From a virus, in the IMG/VR virus record IMGVR_UViG_3300032516_000242, positions 1 to 20,602 of that record: a stretch of DNA of 20,602 nt; one strand, given 5' to 3'. Below are positions 4,677-20,059 of this stretch, piece by piece (position 1 is the first letter of the stretch; each line of letters begins with the position of its first letter). The translations under genes and the position numbers were made by a program. The notes beneath the pieces were generated by a model. It was not told the origin of the DNA, ran no database searches, and saw nothing but the letters and a program-made list of their open reading frames with translations.

Positions 4677-5123
4677 ATGATAAAAGAAATAAATTTTGAA
4701 ACTATTCTTCCTATATGGAGGGATAAGTTATGGCCTGGTCGTGTATCTGCTATAGAGACTCATAGTGCTATGCTTCATCTCTATACAGAATATGATATGG
4801 GCAACTTTTTATTACCAGTATGGTATATTGGATATTATGAAGATAACGAACTAATAGGCGTCAATAGCGGGCATATGTGTGTCGATGGTAGTGCTCGCTC
4901 GCGCGGCCTGTGGATTATGCCGGAATTCCGCAAAAACGGTCGTGGAAAACAACTTCTAGGGGCAACGATAGCAAAGGCTAGGGAATATAATGCCTCTTCT
5001 ATATGGAGTTATTCGAGAAAAACATCTTGGCCAACATATAAATCAGTGGGATTTATATTGACCTCGGATTGGCAGCAGAGCGAGACCAGTGAAGCAAATG
5101 CATACTGCTATCTAGAATTATGA
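4677..5123 (+). CDS. GNAT-family N-acetyltransferase
   Basis: This 148-residue protein is predicted to transfer an acyl group from acyl-CoA to an amine. The GNAT core is visible: RGLWIMPEFRKNGRGKQLL contains the beta4 strand and the R-x-x-G-x-G/A-type pyrophosphate loop (motif A). SYSRKTSWPTYKSVGFIL matches motif B, with the usual aromatic-lysine-x-x-GF pattern. The start is set at 4677 because the in-frame ATG at 4659 overlaps the GATAAATA box; the longer form would add 6 residues. Its TGA overlaps the next ATG (ATGA), so it opens a tightly coupled five-gene operon. The minus-strand operon also begins with a GNAT gene. Confidence 0.82.
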   Translation: MIKEINFETILPIWRDKLWPGRVSAIETHSAMLHLYTEYDMGNFLLPVWYIGYYEDNELIGVNSGHMCVDGSARSRGLWIMPEFRKNGRGKQLLGATIAKAREYNASSIWSYSRKTSWPTYKSVGFILTSDWQQSETSEANAYCYLEL

Positions 5124-5962
5124 AATATCAGTTTGATCCATTTATTTTCTATTATGATGAGGTCGATTGGCCTATCTATGATTTTAGAACAGAATGTATT
5201 ATGGCTGCACATAAGGCAGCTTCAATGAATGTGAAAGGATTGCCTATTATTGTAACAATGAGTGGTGGACTTGATAGTGAGCTTATTGCTGAATCTTTAT
5301 ATCAGGCTAAAATACCATTCCGCGCTTTGATAGGTAAATTACAAGTACAGGTTGCTACAGAAACAATAATATTGAATGAACATGATTATAGTTATGCAGA
5401 AAAATGGTGTCATAATCATGGTATCGAAATAGAATATTGTAATTTAGATGTATATAAAAATGCACAATTATTGACAGAATATTCGATATTTTCTAAAGGG
5501 TTTTCGCCGCAATATGCATGGCATATGTATCTAATGAAATATGCCAGTGATAATGGGTATTTCTTTATTTCAGGGTTAGGAGATATAGATATTGTATTAA
5601 GAAATGGCGAATATTATTGTGCCGATACACAACGAGAATGGTCAATTGATATATTCTGTGAAACTTATAATCTAAATGGAATTATTAGGTTTGTAAAATT
5701 AGATTCCCGTCTAACAGCAGCTTTTCTGGAACTGAAATCAGTAAAGAGTCTAATGAAGGATAGGGCAGAAATTTTATTGCAACATAAACATCGGTGCTTT
5801 TCTGAGGTATTTCCGAATATGGAAAATAGACCTAAATTTACAGGATTTGAAAAGATACAAGAATGGGATTCTATACTCCGAAACTATATGAAGAAGCATA
5901 ATGGGCAACACGATACCATTTCGTATATACCTATATCTTACTTTCAAACAAAGGAACTATAA
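5120..5962 (+). CDS. PP-loop (asparagine-synthetase-type) protein 1
   Basis: This is a 280-residue protein. Residues 47-53 (MSGGLDS) form a complete PP-loop of N-type ATP pyrophosphatases, which activate a carboxylate or carbonyl as an adenylate for attack by nitrogen or sulfur. The following ELIAESL helix also fits. There is no N-terminal glutaminase domain, so ammonia or another nucleophile must come from elsewhere. The region around residue 150 (FISGLGDIDIVLRNG) may correspond to the second nucleotide-site motif of asparagine synthetases. It is coupled by overlap to the GNAT gene upstream (ATGA) and to the unknown downstream (TAATG). The substrate is unknown. Confidence 0.8.
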   Translation: MKYQFDPFIFYYDEVDWPIYDFRTECIMAAHKAASMNVKGLPIIVTMSGGLDSELIAESLYQAKIPFRALIGKLQVQVATETIILNEHDYSYAEKWCHNHGIEIEYCNLDVYKNAQLLTEYSIFSKGFSPQYAWHMYLMKYASDNGYFFISGLGDIDIVLRNGEYYCADTQREWSIDIFCETYNLNGIIRFVKLDSRLTAAFLELKSVKSLMKDRAEILLQHKHRCFSEVFPNMENRPKFTGFEKIQEWDSILRNYMKKHNGQHDTISYIPISYFQTKEL

Positions 5963-6543
5963 TGTTAGCAAATTTCTTCTCTATAGGTGATAAAAATTAT
6001 CTTAACAACGCAGTTGTTATATCGGATGCATTGAATAGAATTATTGAAATTTTTGAAGATGTTAAGAACTTCAAAATTCAATTTAGAAAACCCTTCCTAT
6101 CTCAGGGAGAATTTACCGTAAGTACAAATAAACTCGATGGACATATTACCGGAGAATTTGATACAGAGAAATTTCATTTTTATTTTTCCTATTCTCCAAC
6201 CGGTATTGCCTTAGAAAATAGAACAGCTACCAGATATGATATAGAAAAAGAAATCAATCCCTTCAATATTTGCTATAATATTACCGATCATTGTCGTGGC
6301 GTTATAGAGGCAGGATTTGAGAAAGTATACGGCACCATGACTGAAAAAGATAAAGTCATCTTTGTTATATTTGAAGTGCCAGATACCTCTGTGTTTTCCT
6401 CTGTTATTAAAAATCAGATTATGCCAGCAATGCGTATAACAGAAGCCGAACAAACAGGAGATCGTCGATTCAAAATATCTGTTTATCTTGGTGATCAATT
6501 ATTGGGTTATCGTTATAGCACAGTAAAGGAATTCATTGTATGA
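5962..6543 (+). CDS. unknown protein of the PP-loop operon
   Basis: This 193-residue soluble protein has no signal peptide. AAAGGA precedes the ATG, which overlaps the previous TAA by one base. Its composition suggests a mixed alpha/beta fold, with a strand-rich middle (GEFDTEKFHFYFSYSPTGI). It ends VKEFIV with TGA overlapping the next ATG. I do not recognise the family. Its place between a PP-loop protein and an SGNH-like protein, with overlapping stops and starts on both sides, implies equimolar production and a role in the same pathway, perhaps as a partner subunit. Confidence 0.75.
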   Translation: MLANFFSIGDKNYLNNAVVISDALNRIIEIFEDVKNFKIQFRKPFLSQGEFTVSTNKLDGHITGEFDTEKFHFYFSYSPTGIALENRTATRYDIEKEINPFNICYNITDHCRGVIEAGFEKVYGTMTEKDKVIFVIFEVPDTSVFSSVIKNQIMPAMRITEAEQTGDRRFKISVYLGDQLLGYRYSTVKEFIV

Positions 6544-7403
6544 CCTATTGGAACGAAAAAGAAGATTTGCATATTCGCTTCTGGAATACGGATATATATG
6601 GAAGTTATTGGAAAATAAGACATGAAATTAATGAACAAGGATATCGTGGTGATGAATTACAATCAAGTAAGGTGATATTTCTTGGAACATGTGATATTAT
6701 GACTAATCTTACGGATAAGACACAGAGATGGTCAGAACTTGTCCATTCTAAATTACATGGAGATCAACCTTTTATTGCTTTGGGAACGGTTGCGTCGGGT
6801 TTGCCGACAATGATAAGACGATTATATTCGTATATACAAAATTTTGGTGCACCTGAATTGGTATACATGACTATACCTCGGTTCGATGGGTCTGAATTTG
6901 TAAATAAATCGGGTAATTGTTATAATGTAAGTTCCAGAGTAGGTTCAGCGAACTTCTGTAGGCGAGCAGACTTCGTTGATGATGAAGAACACACAGTTTG
7001 GCTTATGCAACTCGAAGCTAACAAGAAACTAAATAATATTCATAATATGCAATATATCCTCGAGGAGAGATTTGCATTTATTGAAACAATATGTAAAGCA
7101 AATTCAATTAAACTAAAATGGACATTTAATCCATCGGATGCTGCCATTACGGTATTGTATAGAAATCACCGAGTATTTGAACATATTAGTGACTTCATGA
7201 AAGATGCTTTTGTAGGTAATCCCGAAGTGAAAGATCAGATGTTTGATAGATCTATCGGCCCCGAAACACATAAAGAAATATATAATAAGTTTATTGGAGA
7301 TGAAAAGTGGAATTATAATAAACTATGTGAAGTAGCAGAATACAATTTCAAATGGTTGGGTCGCCAATACGGTAATGAATTAATTAAGATGGAAGAGTCA
7401 TGA
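6540..7403 (+). CDS. SGNH/GDSL-hydrolase-like protein with Cys at the nucleophile position
   Basis: This is a 287-residue protein. GYRGDE followed by KVIFLGTCDIMTNL (about residues 34-57) resembles block I of SGNH hydrolases (GYRG...LGDSxT), but the nucleophile position carries Cys51 rather than Ser. GTVASGLPTMIRRLYSYI fits the Gly-containing block, and DRSIGPETHKEI (Asp236, His244) may supply the acid and base. Family members hydrolyse or transfer acyl esters. No signal peptide is visible, so it acts in the cytoplasm. It is coupled to its neighbours by a GTATGA overlap upstream and ATGA downstream. A catalytically altered transferase, thioesterase or binding protein are all possible. Confidence 0.55.
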   Translation: MTYWNEKEDLHIRFWNTDIYGSYWKIRHEINEQGYRGDELQSSKVIFLGTCDIMTNLTDKTQRWSELVHSKLHGDQPFIALGTVASGLPTMIRRLYSYIQNFGAPELVYMTIPRFDGSEFVNKSGNCYNVSSRVGSANFCRRADFVDDEEHTVWLMQLEANKKLNNIHNMQYILEERFAFIETICKANSIKLKWTFNPSDAAITVLYRNHRVFEHISDFMKDAFVGNPEVKDQMFDRSIGPETHKEIYNKFIGDEKWNYNKLCEVAEYNFKWLGRQYGNELIKMEES

Positions 7404-8311
7404 TTTATACCTCCGAAAATAATTGGTATAGTTGGCAATATGGTGATGATGAATTATTCGGTAGGCAAACCGGCGGCCTCGCCTTTAAAACTCGATATTC
7501 TAAATATTATGGTCATGTTGATAATTTTGGTAATGAGTTGCAAAAGGCCGCAAAAAGTACACTAGATTATTTTCCGGATTTGCGACCGTCTATTCTTTTT
7601 AGCGGTGGCTCAGAAAGTGAAATCGTATTAAGGACGTATATTAATATTGGTGCAAATCCTAATGTTTACATAATAAGATATGAGGACGACATTAATATTG
7701 TTGATGTGAGTTATGCAATTGCTATATGTACTTCCCTTAATATTAAATATAATCTGATAGATTTTAATATTAAGAAATTTTACGAAAATGATGCAGAAAC
7801 TATTTCCGAACAAGCCCAAATTGATGTTCCTGCAGCATTACCGCAACTAAAATTTCTTAATTATGTAGAAGGATTGCCCATTTACTGTTCGGGCGACCAA
7901 TCATGGTATAGAACACATGATAATTATAATATTCGCGGAACCTGGATTCTTAAATGCTATGAGCACGATGCCGGATGGTCAAAGTATATTCGTTATATTA
8001 ATCGTCCAGCTATAGGAGAGTGGCTTAAATGGACACCCGGATTAGTGTTGTCTTATATCGACCTTAACTGGTTTAAAAAATTAATTAACGACGAATATTA
8101 TGGTAAATTGGGTGTTAATTCTACTAAACTAATAGGTTATAGAGAAGCATACCCAGATTTAATTGCCAGGCAAAAATTAACAGGAATGGAAACTATTCGT
8201 CCATTGATTGACGAATTTAAAGCATTTTTGGAAAAGAAATATCAGGGATTACCTTACCGTAATGAAGTTGTACGCACGCTCGAAGAACTTCGGAACGAAA
8301 TTACTGGATAG
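7400..8311 (+). CDS. PP-loop protein 2 with altered loop (SGGSES)
   Basis: This is a 303-residue protein. ILFSGGSESEIVLRTY (residues 65-80) aligns with the PP-loop of protein 1, but the canonical Asp is Glu72 (SGGSES instead of SGGLDS). A later YCSGDQSWYRTHD may match the second nucleotide-site motif. It may be a reduced-activity or regulatory partner of protein 1; the Glu could still bind Mg2+. It is coupled to the SGNH-like gene by ATGA and is the last gene of the plus operon, converging with the TctC gene (3' ends overlap by 11 nt). The family is inferred from motif and neighbours. Confidence 0.7.
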   Translation: MIYTSENNWYSWQYGDDELFGRQTGGLAFKTRYSKYYGHVDNFGNELQKAAKSTLDYFPDLRPSILFSGGSESEIVLRTYINIGANPNVYIIRYEDDINIVDVSYAIAICTSLNIKYNLIDFNIKKFYENDAETISEQAQIDVPAALPQLKFLNYVEGLPIYCSGDQSWYRTHDNYNIRGTWILKCYEHDAGWSKYIRYINRPAIGEWLKWTPGLVLSYIDLNWFKKLINDEYYGKLGVNSTKLIGYREAYPDLIARQKLTGMETIRPLIDEFKAFLEKKYQGLPYRNEVVRTLEELRNEITG

Positions 8312-9233
8312 GAACAAGTTTTAATTGATTTGTGAATTTTGTTCGCTCTTCCTGAGCAAATTTTCTAAAATCTTCGGAAGTGGTATTAGAAGGCATAGGA
8401 AATATGCCTACTTTCTTAAATTTTTCCTGTAACTGTTTATCTTCTAAGATATGAGTTAGCATATTATTGTGCGAAGCAACAGTTGTTTCATCTGTTCCGG
8501 GTCCTGTAACAAACCCAAACATAGTAGAATCCTCAAGTATATTGGGTACAAATTTTCTTAATTTAGGATACTCCTTAAGTTCGTCGGCATCGGCACCAGC
8601 ATTTGCCACGATACGAACGAGACCACTAGATACCTGAGATTGAATTGTAGTATATGGAACAAACGCATAATCTACGTGTCCGCCCATCACATCTATAACA
8701 GCGGGTCCGACACCCTTATATTCGGCAATAATGGCATTTTTAGAGTCTGTCTCTTTTATAAGAAGAGATGATAATATTCTTAAACCTAATGCGCCGGATG
8801 CAAATGATACAGGTTTGCTAGATTTTAAATCGCCTAGAACCTCTGGTAATGATTTTGTATTCTTTGGATTTGTAATTAATACATTTGGTGTAAATCCGAC
8901 CATTTTTATATATGTTAGAGTTTGTGGATCAAATTTTCTAACTTCGTCTAGACTTGGAATAATTGAATAGGCATACTGTGCCTGACTGGTAATGCAAATG
9001 AGATTTTTATCGTCGACCCTCGAGACACATTCATTCATACCGATTATACCACCAGCACCTGCCTTTATCTCAATTGCATTTTTATATCCTAATTTAATAC
9101 CGGTTTCGGAAATTAATTGACCCACGATATAATTTCCACCACCGGGTGGAAATCCAACAAGTATTGTAAGATTATCGGCATACGAATTCATTGCTAATAC
9201 CGTAAGCACAGCAAGGAGGATTTTTTTAATCAT
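8301..9233 (-). CDS. TctC/Bug-family periplasmic solute-binding protein
   Basis: This is a 310-residue protein, close to the usual length for the family. An N-terminal signal peptide (residues 1-20, ending NSYA) is followed by LVGFPPGGGNYIVGQLI, the hallmark first motif of tripartite-tricarboxylate-transporter binding proteins, and GAGGIIGMNECVSR, the second. GVGPAVIDVMGGHVDYAF fits the later conserved helix and ligand loop. Relatives bind carboxylates or small amides in the periplasm and deliver them to TctAB. The start is supported by TGGAGAATC just before the ATG. No membrane subunits are nearby, so it would use a host TctAB, act in sensing, or serve another role. It is unusual cargo for a phage. 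Confidence 0.9.
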   Translation of the reverse strand: MIKKILLAVLTVLAMNSYADNLTILVGFPPGGGNYIVGQLISETGIKLGYKNAIEIKAGAGGIIGMNECVSRVDDKNLICITSQAQYAYSIIPSLDEVRKFDPQTLTYIKMVGFTPNVLITNPKNTKSLPEVLGDLKSSKPVSFASGALGLRILSSLLIKETDSKNAIIAEYKGVGPAVIDVMGGHVDYAFVPYTTIQSQVSSGLVRIVANAGADADELKEYPKLRKFVPNILEDSTMFGFVTGPGTDETTVASHNNMLTHILEDKQLQEKFKKVGIFPMPSNTTSEDFRKFAQEERTKFTNQLKLVPIQ

Positions 9234-9258
9234 GATTCTCCAGAATAAATTATATGTA

Positions 9259-9266
9259 TATTTATT
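9259..9266 (-). promoter_or_regulatory. late-promoter-like box AATAAATA (minus strand)
   Basis: Read on the minus strand this is AATAAATA. It ends 25 nt before the ATG of the TctC-type gene, leaving room for its leader and TGGAG ribosome site. It faces away from the plus-strand box at 9295. Confidence 0.4.
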
Positions 9267-9294
9267 TAAATATTTGTTCTTATAAGTATCATTT

Positions 9295-9302
9295 GATAAA
9301 TA
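9295..9302 (+). promoter_or_regulatory. late-promoter-like box GATAAATA
   Basis: The plus-strand box lies 20 nt before the ATG at 9323. A GGGAG ribosome site (9310-9314) lies in the transcribed leader, giving normal promoter and RBS geometry. Confidence 0.5.
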
Positions 9303-9322
9303 GTTTAAATGGGAGAATTATT

Positions 9323-9640
9323 ATGATTCAATATACAAGATCTTATACAAGACCAAGTACATTAGTGGCCTGGTGGTTTGAAGTTACATTAGCTGTTCCT
9401 AGATCAGTCTTTCATGACAGGATGATAGCAGCATATTATGCTACAGGAAAAGTACTCTCAGAGGATACAGTAATATCTCCGGACGGATTAACACTTACCT
9501 GGACAGGAATCTGGGAAAGTGAAGCAGCATTTAACGAATATGATATTGATTCTGTCCTAAATACATATTGGGTACTTAAAGACGATTACAATACATCAGT
9601 GGATATCATTAAGGGTCCGCTAGGAATTCAAACAATTTAA
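9323..9640 (+). CDS. small unknown protein, possible dimeric alpha/beta-barrel fold
   Basis: This is a 105-residue protein starting MIQYTRSYTRPS. The start at 9323 is set by GGGAG 8-12 nt upstream; an earlier in-frame ATG (9254) would add an implausible leader across the promoter box. The alternating pattern TLTWTGIWESEAAFNEYDID is like the strand-helix units of antibiotic-monooxygenase or EthD-type dimeric barrels, but this is weak. It is the only plus-strand gene inside the minus-strand block, and its stop overlaps the stop of the PP-loop 3 gene. It could be a separately regulated member of the same pathway. Confidence 0.7.
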   Translation: MIQYTRSYTRPSTLVAWWFEVTLAVPRSVFHDRMIAAYYATGKVLSEDTVISPDGLTLTWTGIWESEAAFNEYDIDSVLNTYWVLKDDYNTSVDIIKGPLGIQTI

Positions 9641-10551
9641 ATTTTCGTTAAGCACGTAATTGGCTTATTCCTGAATTTATTTTTATTCATTGATCGCATA
9701 TACATTCTTATTTCATAATTAGATTCCAGTGAATCTTCCCAATTTGTAGTCTTGTAATTGAATATCAGGTCGGGCCAGAGAGTATCGACTAGAACGCGGG
9801 TATCTATTCTTTTATTTTCTTTAACCATTAGTGGATGATGAAAATAAGATCTTAATAATAACGGTGACGAAGCATAAAAGTACATTTCACATGCTCGGTG
9901 ATTCGTTAGAGCCCATTGTCTATAATAAACTTCTGTAATGCTTATCGGTATGCCATTATACGAACCGTTGCTATTAGCTAAAGATTCGTAATCCGGCCCA
10001 CTTTTTTGTGGATCACCCTCGCCGCCTATAATATAGGTATTAAATGGAATTCTTTCTAGTAGGTATGGCAGGCATAGATATGTTGGCTTTTCTGCCTGTA
10101 AATTTTTGTAATTTTTTTCTAGTACAGAATCAAATGCTTCTTCCTTTGATAAAGAAATTACATTGAGTTTTGTACCTAACTCGGCTGCTAGATCTTGAGA
10201 CATTTTTAATGCCCGTGAATTAATATTCCAAATATCTAGAAACCATAATTCAAATGGTATTCCTTGTGTTGCTGCTTCTCTAGCAATAATTTCACTGTCG
10301 GCCCCTGATATACAAATAGAGAGGGGCATGTTAGCCGAGCTGTGTAAATCTGTAATTGTTTTTCTTATTGCATACTTTAAATCAGATGTAATTAAGTCAT
10401 CATCTATAGTATATGTAAATTCGAAAGAACTGCCATCTATATTAGAAATTGGTGAAAAATATTCTTTATTAAATGACCACCGTACATGTCTTGGAACGGA
10501 TAAACACACGTTTCGAGAATCTTTGTTATCGTAATCTATTAGTCGAGTCAT
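9637..10551 (-). CDS. PP-loop protein 3, degenerate loop (SGADS)
   Basis: This is a 304-residue protein. ICISGADSEIIAREAA (residues 79-94) resembles the PP-loop of protein 1 (SGGLDSELIAESL) with one residue missing, so nucleotide binding may be changed. IIGGEGDPQKSGPDY later in the chain resembles the GEGADE-type second motif of asparagine synthetases. The lengths and loop positions of proteins 1-3 are similar, so they are probably paralogues. Its ATG overlaps the TGA of the AsnB-like gene upstream in the same operon (ATGA). No glutaminase domain is present. The substrate is unknown. Confidence 0.72.
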   Translation of the reverse strand: MTRLIDYDNKDSRNVCLSVPRHVRWSFNKEYFSPISNIDGSSFEFTYTIDDDLITSDLKYAIRKTITDLHSSANMPLSICISGADSEIIAREAATQGIPFELWFLDIWNINSRALKMSQDLAAELGTKLNVISLSKEEAFDSVLEKNYKNLQAEKPTYLCLPYLLERIPFNTYIIGGEGDPQKSGPDYESLANSNGSYNGIPISITEVYYRQWALTNHRACEMYFYASSPLLLRSYFHHPLMVKENKRIDTRVLVDTLWPDLIFNYKTTNWEDSLESNYEIRMYMRSMNKNKFRNKPITCLTKI

Positions 10552-11627
10552 TCTTTGTTAATTTCTATATTTTGAATTCTATATATTCTGTTGTCTTCGA
10601 TACCTAATGCATTATATTTGTATGTACCTGTTACAAGTATTCTGTATAGCGAAGGAACCTTTATCTTTGTTGTTGTATAATTACCTAAATCTATGTATTT
10701 TTCTATAAACAGTCTTGATGCCAGTTTATGATTATACCTGCTTGGCGGTGATCCCCATTTAGGCATATTTCCAAATAATGATAGAATTTGAAAATCTGGA
10801 GTATTGAAAAATGTATCAAATATTTTCAATTCAGAATCGTGTGTTATGACATCCAGAAAGTTAGTAAAGCACAATGTTCTTAATGCAACAGATTGCCATT
10901 TGCATGAAAAATTTAACCACCACCTCAGGTCTGCCATTGTGTTAAGTGGTACGGTAGCATTTTCTACTAAATTTCTTAGGACTCTATGTAAATATGGTTT
11001 TGCTGTTTCATTTACCTTACTGATAATAAACATTTTTTCAATATTATCTTCGTTTATTTCCTCGTCAAAGAAATCCATGACATGGTGTAGAAGTCCGCCA
11101 CCAAATAATTGATCGGCATTTTCCCCCATAACATATCGATCGACGGTTGTATTTGGGTTGTTTATATTGTCTAATGCCGTATTTGCTGATGTAAGTTTAA
11201 AATATGGAAGAATGATTTTATTCCAGAATTTTGGATTTTCGATAATAGAATGTTGGCTAGCAGCAATTGTAATTTGATTGTAATTTCCTATACCGTTTTG
11301 TATTGCAATCCAGAAACTAAGAACAACAACGGTACTATCCAGGCCACCACTATAGAATATAACTATATCTTTACTTTCCTTCAATATTTCCTTGGCTCTG
11401 TTAATACATACTTCATCATAGCGGAGATTAATCGGGCCTTCGGGCTTCGGGGGAATGCCATATAGTATTTTAGTCTCAAATGGGGTTTCTAATGCATTAC
11501 TTCTGTCGATCAGGCTTGCGTTAGGACTAACAATCTTAAATAATTCACAAAAATCTAATAATTTCTTGTTTGATTCCCGTTGAGCTTGTTCTTTTAAAAA
11601 CAAGGGCATATAATAGATAATTTTCAT
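10548..11627 (-). CDS. asparagine-synthetase-like (AsnB C-domain) PP-loop protein 4
   Basis: This 359-residue protein is the most canonical of the four. IVIFYSGGLDSTVVVLSF (residues 88-105) is a full PP-loop, and GENADQLFGGGLLHH (168-182) matches the G-E-G-A-D-E-L-F-G-G motif of asparagine synthetase and beta-lactam or lasso-peptide cyclase relatives. These enzymes adenylate a carboxylate and form an amide. The N-terminal ~85 residues are not a glutaminase domain (no Cys2). Starts and stops overlap with both neighbours (ATGA at 10548 and 11624), so it is translated with them. Amide formation with free ammonia or an amine donor is the most direct prediction. Confidence 0.85.
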   Translation of the reverse strand: MKIIYYMPLFLKEQAQRESNKKLLDFCELFKIVSPNASLIDRSNALETPFETKILYGIPPKPEGPINLRYDEVCINRAKEILKESKDIVIFYSGGLDSTVVVLSFWIAIQNGIGNYNQITIAASQHSIIENPKFWNKIILPYFKLTSANTALDNINNPNTTVDRYVMGENADQLFGGGLLHHVMDFFDEEINEDNIEKMFIISKVNETAKPYLHRVLRNLVENATVPLNTMADLRWWLNFSCKWQSVALRTLCFTNFLDVITHDSELKIFDTFFNTPDFQILSLFGNMPKWGSPPSRYNHKLASRLFIEKYIDLGNYTTTKIKVPSLYRILVTGTYKYNALGIEDNRIYRIQNIEINKE

Positions 11628-12232
11628 ACCTGTCCTATTCTAACAGTTTCATTAATAACCGTGGTTTTCCAGGCTAAGAATTCTTGCTCAGTCTCAACAA
11701 GTCTTAATGAATTACTATATTTCCAAATTAGTGTTTGTTTTCTGAAGTGTACTGATAAAAGAGATTCGGCTAGGAAATTAAGATGTTTACTGGCAACCTC
11801 AAAACTCATATTCATGCACCGAGCATATTCTGTAATATATTGTACCTTGTGCTGATAAAACATCGGTAAATCATCGGTAGTAAGGTCGCTTAGGTTATCA
11901 TATGAGCTACCGACTATTGTTGCCTGTTCGAGCAGAAGATAAAACCCTTTTGCTAGCCTTTGGGCAATTTCACGTTTCTTAATTAATTCCGGAGTTATTG
12001 TACCGGTGTATTCGGAAAATTGTCCTGTACCGTAGTGATAGATCCAATATTGATCGGTAAACCAATTTTGATTTACACTCCTTGTCATATAATCTCCGTA
12101 TTGTACAGCCGATGTATCAAGAATACTACTTACAATAAATTTTACAGTTTCATTTGATCTGGAGGAATACAAGATAACATCTGTTGCTCTATCAGCAACA
12201 AAACTCATTCCAAAATAGTTTATATGTAACAT
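11624..12232 (-). CDS. unknown protein of the minus PP-loop operon
   Basis: This 202-residue protein appears soluble and mostly alpha-helical in its second half (KKREIAQRLAKGFYLLLEQA), with several aromatic residues. No signal peptide or catalytic motif is recognised. It lies 1 nt downstream of the secreted protein gene and overlaps the AsnB-like gene through ATGA. It is comparable in size and operon position with the 193-residue unknown in the plus operon, but similarity is not obvious by eye. It could be a partner or carrier subunit for the PP-loop enzymes. Confidence 0.72.
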   Translation of the reverse strand: MLHINYFGMSFVADRATDVILYSSRSNETVKFIVSSILDTSAVQYGDYMTRSVNQNWFTDQYWIYHYGTGQFSEYTGTITPELIKKREIAQRLAKGFYLLLEQATIVGSSYDNLSDLTTDDLPMFYQHKVQYITEYARCMNMSFEVASKHLNFLAESLLSVHFRKQTLIWKYSNSLRLVETEQEFLAWKTTVINETVRIGQV

Positions 12233-14969: not shown

Positions 14970-14977
14970 GAGGTAAT

Positions 14978-15085
14978 ATGAAAAGACTTTTGGAAATTCG
15001 TGCCGCGGAAGGCGGAGAAGATAGTGCCTTATTTACAAAGGATTTAGCACAAGCATACCAACGACATTTTGATCGCGTAGGCTGA
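14978..15085 (+). CDS. RF1-like release factor, N-terminal part ending at in-frame UGA
   Basis: From ATG 14978 (AAGAGGT just upstream), 35 codons read MKRLLEIRAAEGGEDSALFT and KDLAQAYQRHFDRVG, then TGA. LEIRAAEGGEDSALF is the start of the release-factor domain 2 signature (I-E-I-R-A-G-x-G-G-x-E-A-x-L-F in RF1). In bacterial RF1 the residue after this helix is a conserved Trp (GW or RW), exactly where TGA stands. Downstream the same frame continues through 8 codons into the rest of the factor at 15110. The first ~100 residues of normal RF1 (domain 1) are absent. Confidence 0.82.
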   Translation: MKRLLEIRAAEGGEDSALFTKDLAQAYQRHFDRVG

Positions 15086-15109
15086 ATTAATCACTTAGTA
15101 AAGGATACA

Positions 15110-15646
15110 TTGGGTGAAATCTATATAGAAGTATCTGGTATAGATTTATCCAAATTAGAGAATGAAGCAGGTGGTCATCGTATCCAACGAGTTCCGCCCA
15201 CAGAACGTAAAGGTAGAGTTCATACTAGCACCGTGACAGTAGCTATCACTGATCCTGAAATACAGGTAAAAGAGTATAAAGATTCAGACTTTAAGATTGA
15301 ATGGTATAGCGGCACAGGTGCTGGTGGACAGCATCGTAATAAACACCAAAATTCGTGCAGAATAACATATTTGCCCACTGGTCAGACTGCCACGGCACAA
15401 TGTCGTTCACGGCAAAATAGCCAAGAACAGGCGAAAGCAGCACTGTTAGAAACGCTTAATTCACACGCGGATAAAGAGTTTAAGATTGGTATAGATGCTA
15501 ATCGTAGGCAGCAAGTCGGATCTGGTATGCGTGGAGATAAAATTAGAACATACCGTTTTCAAGACGATGTGGTAAAAGATCATATCTCTGGAAAGTCAGC
15601 ATCAGTAAATAAGGTGCTAAAAGGATTTTTTGATTTAATGTGGTAA
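15110..15646 (+). CDS. RF1-like peptide chain release factor, main part (GGQ)
   Basis: This is a 178-residue part in the same frame as the fragment at 14978. GGHRIQRVPPTERKGRVHTS contains a P-x-T tripeptide (residues 29-31) at the codon-reading loop, so it is of RF1 type (UAG/UAA), not the SPF of RF2. GTGAGGQHRNKHQNS (residues 69-83) carries the GGQ that triggers peptidyl-tRNA hydrolysis. RQQVGSGMRGDKIRTYRFQD is the usual domain 4 region, and it ends in LMW. Translation could come from UGA readthrough (about 222 residues in total) or from reinitiation at TTG 15110, which has AAAGGA 5 nt upstream. Either form lacks domain 1, as in some short phage or rescue-type factors. Confidence 0.88.
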   Translation: MGEIYIEVSGIDLSKLENEAGGHRIQRVPPTERKGRVHTSTVTVAITDPEIQVKEYKDSDFKIEWYSGTGAGGQHRNKHQNSCRITYLPTGQTATAQCRSRQNSQEQAKAALLETLNSHADKEFKIGIDANRRQQVGSGMRGDKIRTYRFQDDVVKDHISGKSASVNKVLKGFFDLMW

Positions 15647-16199: not shown

Positions 16200-16340
16200 G
16201 TTGGTAGCGAAAGGGGAATGTAAGAGTACCGTATCGTAAGGGTGAAAGCCCCCTAGACCCGGTACCGCCAGCAATTATTGTTGTATGAAGTTGATAAAAA
16301 GAGGTTCCGGACGGGAGTTCGATACTCCCCATCTCCACCA
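16200..16340 (+). ncRNA. ssrA: permuted tmRNA, acceptor piece
   Basis: This half ends in CATCTCC-A-CCA (16330-16340) and carries a T-arm GGGAG-TTCGATA-CTCCC (16313-16329). CATCTCC pairs with GGGGATG at the start of the coding piece (16359-16365), with G-T at pair 3-70, the alanine identity signal required for charging. Because the CCA-bearing half precedes the 5' half, the gene is circularly permuted, as in alphaproteobacteria, cyanobacteria and some betaproteobacteria. Bases 16341-16358 are the intervening loop, with CCGTA/TACGG (16346-16360), removed to give two RNAs. The 5' end is placed from the promoter and is approximate. Confidence 0.87.
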
Positions 16341-16358
16341 ATTAACCGTACCAGATAC

Positions 16359-16572
16359 GGGGATGAAATGGCTTCGACGGGGCAATGAGTATTGAGATGG
16401 ACAACACGGTAGGCGATGACCGTAAATCAAGCAAAACTCGTAAATGCAAACGCAAATACAACCGAGACAGTAGCACTTGACCTATCAGCTTTGGCTGACA
16501 GCGATATGATGCTTCTAGCTGCCTAAGAAACAGCAGTCTCCGGGGTAGGATATACCTTGTAAACCAAAACAC
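16359..16572 (+). ncRNA. ssrA: permuted tmRNA, coding piece with tag
   Basis: GGGGATGAAATGGCTTCGAC (16359-16378) is the classic tmRNA 5' end. An ACGGT/ACCGT hairpin (about 16405-16423) may be part of the first pseudoknot. The open tag frame begins with GCA at 16446 and ends in TAA at 16524-16526. In ribosome rescue this RNA enters stalled ribosomes with SmpB (not seen here) and adds a degradation tag. The 3' end is not precise; the piece ends before the terminator at 16573. Confidence 0.87.
16446..16526 (+). other. tmRNA proteolysis-tag reading frame
   Basis: There are 26 sense codons: ANANTTETVALDLSALAD then SDMMLLAA, then TAA. It ends in LLAA, fitting the hydrophobic LAA-type C-terminal degron. 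It is longer than most bacterial tags (roughly 8-15, some longer). The first codon GCA (Ala) fits a normal resume codon; the exact resume point is inferred. Confidence 0.7.
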
Positions 16573-16598
16573 CATGGGCCTTCGGGCCCATTTTCTTT
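16573..16598 (+). terminator. rho-independent terminator after tmRNA
   Basis: ATGGGCC-TTCG-GGCCCAT is a 7-bp stem with a stable TTCG tetraloop, followed by TTTCTTTT. Confidence 0.95.
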
Positions 16599-16617
16599 TA
16601 CAAAATTATTTGTGAGA

Positions 16618-19016: not shown

Positions 19017-19091
19017 GCGCTGGTAGCTTAATGATAAAGTACGAGCCTCTAAAACTCAGGGTTGTGGGTTTGATTCCCACTCAGCGCACCA
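19017..19091 (+). tRNA. tRNA with anticodon CTA (amber suppressor)
   Basis: The acceptor GCGCTGG/TCAGCGC ends in A73-CCA. The D-arm is GCTT/AAGT, the variable loop GGGTT, and the T-arm GTGGG-TTTGATT-CCCAC. All segment lengths are canonical, which fixes positions 34-36 as CTA (19049-19051) in loop CTCTAAA, the same loop as classical amber suppressors. The anticodon stem CGAGC/ACTCA has C-A mismatches at 27-43 and 31-39. It would insert an amino acid at UAG; which one cannot be told from the sequence. Confidence 0.82.
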
Positions 19092-19618: not shown

Positions 19619-20059
19619 ATGAAACGCGGCGAAATGCTCAACAAAATGCTTGTTTTGGTAACAACCCAATTTGACGGCGTTTTTGATAGGGGTGGTGTTC
19701 CCTATGTTCTGCATTGTCTGAAGGTTATGCACTATCTAAAATCTGACGATGAGGAACTTCAGTGTATCGCACTGGGTCACGACTTGGTTGAGGACACAGA
19801 TGTAACTTACTTTGATTTACGCGAACTTGGATTTAGTGATCGTGTAATCGAAGGTATCCGTGCCATGACTAAGGTACCCGGGGAAACCAACGATGAATAC
19901 ATGGTTCGCATCAAAGCTAACCCCGATGCTATTCGCACCAAACTTAGTGATTTGCGTCACAACAGTGATATTCGTCGTTTGAAGGGTGTTACCGCTAAGG
20001 ATGTGGCACGCATTGAAAAGTACCATAAGATGTATCTTGAGCTAAGGGATCTTCTTTAG
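19619..20059 (+). CDS. RelA/SpoT-type HD-domain hydrolase (possible ppGpp hydrolase)
   Basis: This is a 146-residue single-domain protein. His32 in PYVLHCLKV, HDLVEDT (residues 54-60, the HD and downstream ED pair), and KLSDLRHN (residues 108-115, the last Asp and Asn) reproduce the metal site and signature of RelA/SpoT and Mesh1-type ppGpp hydrolases. There is no synthetase, TGS or ACT domain, so it is a small alarmone hydrolase type. It would lower (p)ppGpp and keep the host translating; other nucleotide substrates are possible. It has its own sigma70 promoter and AAGGAG site. Its 3' end overlaps the convergent endonuclease gene by 18 nt. It ends in TAG. Confidence 0.88.
   Translation: MKRGEMLNKMLVLVTTQFDGVFDRGGVPYVLHCLKVMHYLKSDDEELQCIALGHDLVEDTDVTYFDLRELGFSDRVIEGIRAMTKVPGETNDEYMVRIKANPDAIRTKLSDLRHNSDIRRLKGVTAKDVARIEKYHKMYLELRDLL

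Follow-up and report, generated by a model that had tools for sequence, protein, structure and literature searches.

The 20,602-base stretch of viral DNA analysed here (IMG/VR virus record IMGVR_UViG_3300032516_000242, positions 1 to 20,602; hereafter the window) contains at 14978–15646 a gene for an RF1-type release factor, the reading frame of which is interrupted by a TGA at codon 36 (15083–15085). This in-frame TGA is real and under selection; it is retained in all 88 genes of the window's class, in which the frame and the protein are conserved on both sides of it. From this pattern we strongly infer programmed recoding of the release-factor gene. Our preferred reading, to which we assign a probability of about 0.7, is that programmed readthrough of the UGA, with insertion of Trp, makes the phage factor conditional on weak UGA termination.

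The interrupted release-factor gene and the conservation of its UGA

The frame reads MKRLLEIRAAEGGEDSALFTKDLAQAYQRHFDRVG*INHLVKDTLGEIYIEV...FDLMW*, i.e. 222 codons followed by a final TAA, with the TGA as sole internal stop. An earlier note, made from the sequence alone, had described release-factor sequence in the same frame before and after the TGA, and profile searches with the frame read through bore this out (PCRF 1.4e-22, RF-1 4e-16). The prfA models matched at 7e-53, a match kept under their curated cut-off for full-length proteins by the lack of domain 1: the profile match begins at PCRF position 103 of 194, and an ATG preceded by a Shine-Dalgarno (SD) sequence lies just ahead. The description of the product as an RF1-type factor stands, as the profiles and the PPT motif indicate, but needs refining: the gene is a shortened RF1 (domains 2–4) and not a complete one. 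The best solved relative is Thermotoga maritima RF1, in which a Trp aligns with codon 36, and the identification of this codon with the Trp position of RF1 also agrees with an alignment of 22 bacterial RF1 sequences (Trp 16, Phe 4, Leu 1, Tyr 1 in that column). An AlphaFold2 model of the read-through protein, run on 33 window and locus sequences, has a pLDDT (predicted local distance difference test) score of 89.6. In this model the 35 residues encoded before the TGA make up the first strand and the long helix of domain 2 and are directly followed by the strand 37–44, so that the two sides of the TGA form one fold and the leader belongs to the folded product.

Viral contigs were searched with six peptides, none of which spans codon 36. 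Among the best 80 of 239 relatives, which come from many different metagenomes and independent assemblies, the TGA was present at this position in 80/80. A catalogue of 153 distinct full-length genes was then compiled, including those from more distant searches, with the profile run in all three forward frames. The window's class (class A, n = 88, a count inflated by related sequences and including several contigs that are fragments) has a single TGA at profile position 35–37 in every member. It is directly preceded by a Gly codon (GGN) in 86 of the 88 genes, and in 66 an ATG start lies exactly 35 codons upstream, with an SD sequence matching at 4–5 of 6 positions. As a control, 80 bacterial RF1 relatives were examined: 79 consist of one frame without a stop, and the sole exception (L305) is on a contig of a metagenome-assembled genome and has a phage-like +1 shift.

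These data leave little room for trivial explanations. A pseudogene, an assembly error or a private mutation has nothing in its favour besides the stop itself; the comparison of homologues proposed in the earlier note found the UGA kept in the 80 nearest relatives and throughout class A, with the downstream frame and protein preserved and the GGQ and PxT motifs intact, and we reject this explanation as scarcely credible. The same note had offered reinitiation at a TTG (15110), which would yield a separate C-terminal protein. The TTG is indeed present in the window, but an in-frame start with a good SD sequence (5/6 or better) within 25 codons of the TGA was found in 0/88 class A genes, and an ATG in only 3/88; furthermore, the residues just before and just after the UGA belong to one conserved fold. 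Reinitiation is therefore rejected as highly improbable, there being no conserved start or SD. We consider it equally improbable that the UGA encodes selenocysteine or has been reassigned genome-wide (to Trp or Gly). A hairpin after the UGA in many class A genes could be read in that sense, yet Cys never occurs in the corresponding column of the 22 bacterial RF1 sequences, and selenocysteine is rejected on this account. Global recoding is rejected since UGA serves as an ordinary stop: it ends 77–155 of the about 280–310 long open reading frames (ORFs) in each of five class A contigs (342–369 kb) and, as the earlier note had remarked, terminates other genes of the window (e.g. those ending at 5123, 6543, 7403 and 18981). 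In a scan of six genomes, filtered against antisense shadows, five in-frame UGA sites were conserved between genomes. Three of them belong to the release-factor gene and the remaining two resemble shadows of other frames, so that no convincing case of a conserved in-frame UGA was found besides the release-factor gene. No tRNA with a UCA anticodon was seen in four of the five class A contigs; the fifth (G011) carries two (L479:19793-19869 and 19929-20002), which would read UGA.

The nucleotides following the UGA were also examined. The base at position +4 is T in 0/88 class A genes compared with 166/525 ordinary UGA stops in class A genomes (Fisher 9e-14); because the 88 genes are related, the comparison was repeated with 22 diverged representatives, none of which has T (P = 2e-4). 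In one study, U at +4 is associated with less readthrough (PMC5289835). Further downstream, in the 60 genes of clade 1, synonymous change over codons +1 to +9 amounts to 0.34 of expectation, the lowest of 213 windows along the gene, compared with 0.99 over codons −9 to −1. In the clade to which our sequence belongs (23 genes), codons +1 to +9 taken as a fixed window come only 34th of 213, and the lowest values are those of windows centred on +1 to +3. A stem that can form six bases past the UGA (CGCC-u-GAUA / UAUC-uu-GGCG) is paired in 74% of cells, versus 66% in shuffled and 28–45% in slid alignments, and its covariation is 0.277 versus 0.175 (reached in 0/500 shuffles). RNAalifold returned no consensus fold across 53 diverse sequences, so that the hairpin rests on explicit pair counting and is claimed for part of the class only; within these bounds a 3′ stimulator is likely. 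Of the two context signals looked for, a +4 base favouring readthrough is thus present throughout class A and a 3′ element in part of it, with weak signals in the window's own clade.

Sister classes among huge phages

In the sequences compiled here, the release-factor gene of huge phages lies behind an early stop codon in nearly all cases. Three further classes were distinguished. Class B (n = 15, e.g. the 735-kb phage LR756501) mostly has TGA at position 43 and/or 51, with some members having it at 38, 46 or 47. Class C (n = 35) has a +1 frameshift arrangement: the stop is at position 37 and CTT directly precedes it in 35/35 genes. The stop is TGA in 28, TAG in 5 and TAA in 2 of these; the +4 base is C in 23/35 and an SD-like sequence is found upstream in 29/35. 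The published 485-kb phage LR745208 shows this arrangement (GGAGGGGTCTTTGAC); its factor (L488) has a shortened codon-recognition loop (HRVQRTSNGRIHSS) from which the PxT motif is missing, with GGQ retained. In class D (n = 5), CTT TGA is located in a short 5′ leader, not every one of which has a clear start codon, and the body of the gene is in the +1 frame. The elements of a prfB-type frameshift site (CUU and UGA, a +1 shift and an upstream SD) are accordingly found in class C and in part in class D, and are lacking in the window and in class A. The catalogue also held two bacterial-type RF1 and two RF2 genes, as well as one gene (L156) containing both TAG and TAA. Lak phages have an uninterrupted full-length gene of the RF2 type.

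In a maximum-likelihood tree of 107 sequences (quick search, supported by the Shimodaira-Hasegawa-like approximate likelihood ratio test (SH-aLRT) only), all phage factors without domain 1 form a single clade (99) within bacterial RF1, to the exclusion of RF2, and there is strong clustering by class (A, B, C and D). Genes without a recoding site are scattered in the tree, which suggests that they represent losses. The UAG and UAA stops are similarly scattered within class C; the identity of the stop has thus changed several times while the CTT was kept. One gene nested in the frameshift clade (L160:4001-4663) has an in-frame CTA TGA CTG and is apparently a natural conversion of frameshifting to readthrough.

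Proposed readthrough, its possible role and alternatives

The near-cognate tRNA that usually decodes UGA is Trp-tRNA (see also PMC3521657), and from the column composition given above Trp is most likely the residue that would be inserted at codon 36. A tRNA-Trp(CCA) gene is present in 5/5 class A genomes, and 26 tRNA-Trp genes are located near the release-factor gene across the 88 class A loci. The U11-A24 pair of the Hirsh suppressor also occurs in three of the first five tRNA-Trp sequences (pairing read by eye). None was found in the complete class C contig G007 and one was found in the class B contig G008. As this comparison covers eight genomes, one of them incompletely read, the association of tRNA-Trp with class A is suggestive only. 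A tRNA of the amber suppressor type (CUA anticodon; labelled Pyl by ARAGORN) is located at 19017–19091 of the window, and such tRNAs occur in 6 of 8 huge-phage contigs scanned (G001, G002, G004, G006, G007 and G008). UAG still ends genes in these contigs, and the six-genome scan gave no convincing conserved in-frame UAG.

We propose the following model. Ribosomes starting at the ATG would reach the UGA at codon 36, where most would terminate and release a useless 35-residue peptide. A fraction would decode the UGA by means of a near-cognate Trp-tRNA, either the host's or the phage's own, and synthesize the 222-residue factor. Since readthrough competes with RF2-dependent termination, output would rise if infection left RF2 scarce or overburdened, low RF2 being the presumed signal. 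The new factor would terminate at UAA and UAG and relieve RF2 of UAA work, UGA termination would recover and readthrough would fall: an indirect negative feedback loop, closed through UAA. The phage probably uses the gene in this way to sense how well the infected cell terminates protein synthesis. The P-x-T motif pointed out in the earlier note is PPT in 88/88 class A genes, and the other codon-loop residues are likewise of the RF1 kind (Q181 in 88/88, H193 and T194 in 86/88 each, and also V192), so that the product is expected to stop at UAA and UAG. As an RF1-type factor does not read UGA, any feedback would have to run via the sharing of UAA, unless specificity is broader than the motif suggests; UAA is the commonest stop in 4 of the 5 class A contigs, which fits a UAA-based loop.

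Several observations weigh against this reading. With its RF1 residues, the class A product is not expected to stop translation at the UGA of its own gene, and direct autoregulation of the prfB kind is not implied. The hairpin is clear in one subclade only; that of the window itself is weak, with a non-significant z of +0.5. The UGA columns of class B are not occupied by Trp elsewhere, so that insertion of Trp may not be needed there, and the recoding site is absent from five phage genes (L116, L155, L171, L185 and L201), which indicates that recoding can be lost.

The model also has to be compared with other roles for the UGA. The phage factor might itself read UGA, owing to a broadened or omnipotent specificity, and repress its own recoding as RF2 does. 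All class A genes and most class C genes have UGA, UAG (5/35) and UAA (2/35) are tolerated in class C as expected of an all-stop reader, and codon-loop His193 is replaced by Gln in most members of classes B, C and D; within class C, Gln193 is found in 19/28 genes with UGA and His193 in 5/7 with UAG or UAA, numbers too small to be significant. Class A, including the window, nevertheless keeps Q181, P-P-T, V192, H193 and T194, which reject UGA in known RF1, and we regard direct autoregulation as doubtful. A timed switch, which would be off early and turned on as phage tRNAs (tRNA-Trp, in some phages also UCA tRNAs) accumulate, and would hence report the stage of infection and not the supply of RF2, is a possible though not a probable alternative. 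The distribution of tRNA-Trp, the U11-A24 pairs and the two UCA tRNAs of G011 are all in line with it, but complete genomes are few, class B G008 also has a tRNA-Trp, and a suppressor is dispensable for the frameshift classes C and D, in which the gene is nonetheless gated at, or close to, the corresponding position. That the UGA is a fixed attenuator, holding a toxic factor at a basal leak with nothing being sensed, is in our view unlikely: release-factor overexpression is indeed costly in bacteria (PMC12421855), but a weak start codon or SD would be simpler, and the fact that a release-factor gene has repeatedly acquired a stop codon at one site, with two recoding routes past it, points to termination itself.

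Gene features, neighbourhood and relation to known systems

The features of the locus are listed in Table 1. ARAGORN predicted 17 tRNA/tmRNA genes in the window, among them the permuted transfer-messenger RNA (tmRNA) gene. The latter adjoins the release-factor gene in the window and in close relatives (L002, L004, L005, L007 and L011), at 4 to 1352 bases past the matched release-factor region, and in G001 smpB lies within about 0.9 kb of the release-factor gene; termination and rescue genes may form a cluster. Elsewhere in the window (5120–12232) there is a group of ORFs with overlapping starts and stops. For those tested, neither Pfam nor PHROG gave a match; motifs of the SGGxDS kind (e.g. 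MSGGLDSELIAES and YSGGLDSTVVVLS), reminiscent of PP-loop ATPases, occur in several of the ORFs.

Table 1. Coordinates of the release-factor gene, its elements and its neighbours in the window
Feature	Positions	Strand	Basis
SD-like GAGG ahead of ATG 14978	14970–14973	+	Read from sequence
RF1-type release-factor gene, domains 2–4 only	14978–15646	+	One frame with internal TGA; full product 222 amino acids; profile matches, AlphaFold2 model
35-codon leader ORF (first strand and helix of domain 2)	14978–15082	+	DSSP of model: E2-9, H14-34, E37-44
Putative programmed UGA, codon 36, RF1 Trp column, +4 base A	15083–15085	+	UGA in 88/88 class A; +4 T in 0/88
Candidate 3′ element (low synonymous change in class, hairpin site)	15086–15117	+	Stem 15091–15099 / 15109–15117 possible but weak in window
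Stop-codon recognition loop HRIQRVPPTERKGRVHTS, residues 67–84 of read-through protein	15176–15229	+	Q181, P-P-T186, V192, H193, T194 (T. thermus RF1 numbering)
GGQ catalytic motif (GAGGQH), residues 115–120 region	15320–15337	+	GGQ in 143/143 class A–D phage genes tallied
Neighbouring ORF, 168 amino acids	15657–16163	+	No family found in profile searches
Permuted tmRNA gene (trans-translation), downstream of release-factor gene	16248–16617	+	RF04321, 131 bits; ARAGORN

The closest parallel among bacteria is prfB, the RF2 gene, in which a class-I release factor is likewise gated by an early UGA. This parallel, drawn in the earlier note, holds and is strengthened by the prfB-like +1 frameshift at the same spot in sister phage genes: classes C and D share the CUU-stop cassette, and most of class C also has the SD-like stimulator and the C at +4. 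The phage factors differ from RF2 in being of the RF1 type and lacking domain 1, and the class C site is in domain 2. Class A differs further in its proposed use of in-frame readthrough, with GGN before the UGA, no CUU and no shift. Among 8,164 prfB cassettes, 98.6% have TGA, 1.4% TAA and none TAG, and no programmed shift was found in prfA (Prince et al., PMC12421855), whereas TAG occurs in 5/35 class C genes (Fisher 1e-12 against 0/8,164). With bacterial RF1 (prfA) the phage proteins have in common the fold, GGQ, PxT and the codon loop; the bacterial genes differ in possessing domain 1 and, in 79/80 cases, in having no in-frame stop. PrfH, which is associated with RtcB2, is also a class-I factor without domain 1, but its match to the window gene is far weaker (TIGR03072, 40 bits compared with a cut-off of 167), and no RtcB partner was seen in the window.

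A second parallel is found in the eRF1 gene of Mimivirus and Megavirus (R726/mg280), expression of which requires both UGA readthrough and a +1 shift at CUU-UAG or CUU-UAA; Trp was proposed at the UGA, and the viral tRNA-Trp has an A in its D arm (PMC3521657). UGA readthrough and a CUU-stop shift are thus features of virus-borne release factors in both cases, but the giant-virus protein is of the eukaryotic type, with an unrelated fold, and combines both events in one gene, whereas the phages would use one route per lineage in a bacterial-type RF1. As recounted in a 2016 review of recoding (PMC5009743), control of RF2 by readthrough was considered before the gene was sequenced; according to that review, no RF2 gene has an early in-frame UGA of this kind, an RF1 counterpart was unknown, and readthrough replaces the RF2 frameshift in no known organism, only the giant virus of amoeba coming near. 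RF1/RF2, tmRNA and SmpB are among the huge-phage components listed by Al-Shayeb et al., whose relevant passages, as far as found, say nothing of recoding. No earlier report of a stop-gated phage RF1 was found in the published papers searched, preprints being outside the scope of the search.

Taken over all classes, we regard it as fairly probable that huge phages possess a family of RF1-type factors under stop-codon-sensing control, which evolved interchangeably as UGA readthrough or as +1 frameshifting at UGA, UAG or UAA. If so, class A would represent control of a release factor by readthrough, which was foreseen prior to the sequencing of prfB and has been reported absent from bacterial release factors, and it would parallel the Mimivirus eRF1 gene, with readthrough and frameshifting sharing roughly one codon position within a single gene family of phages. 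A gated stop explains why gene callers would split these genes in two. The family is a natural set in which to compare readthrough and frameshifting as sensors, and its existence suggests that the capacity for termination is both limiting in huge-phage infection and monitored.
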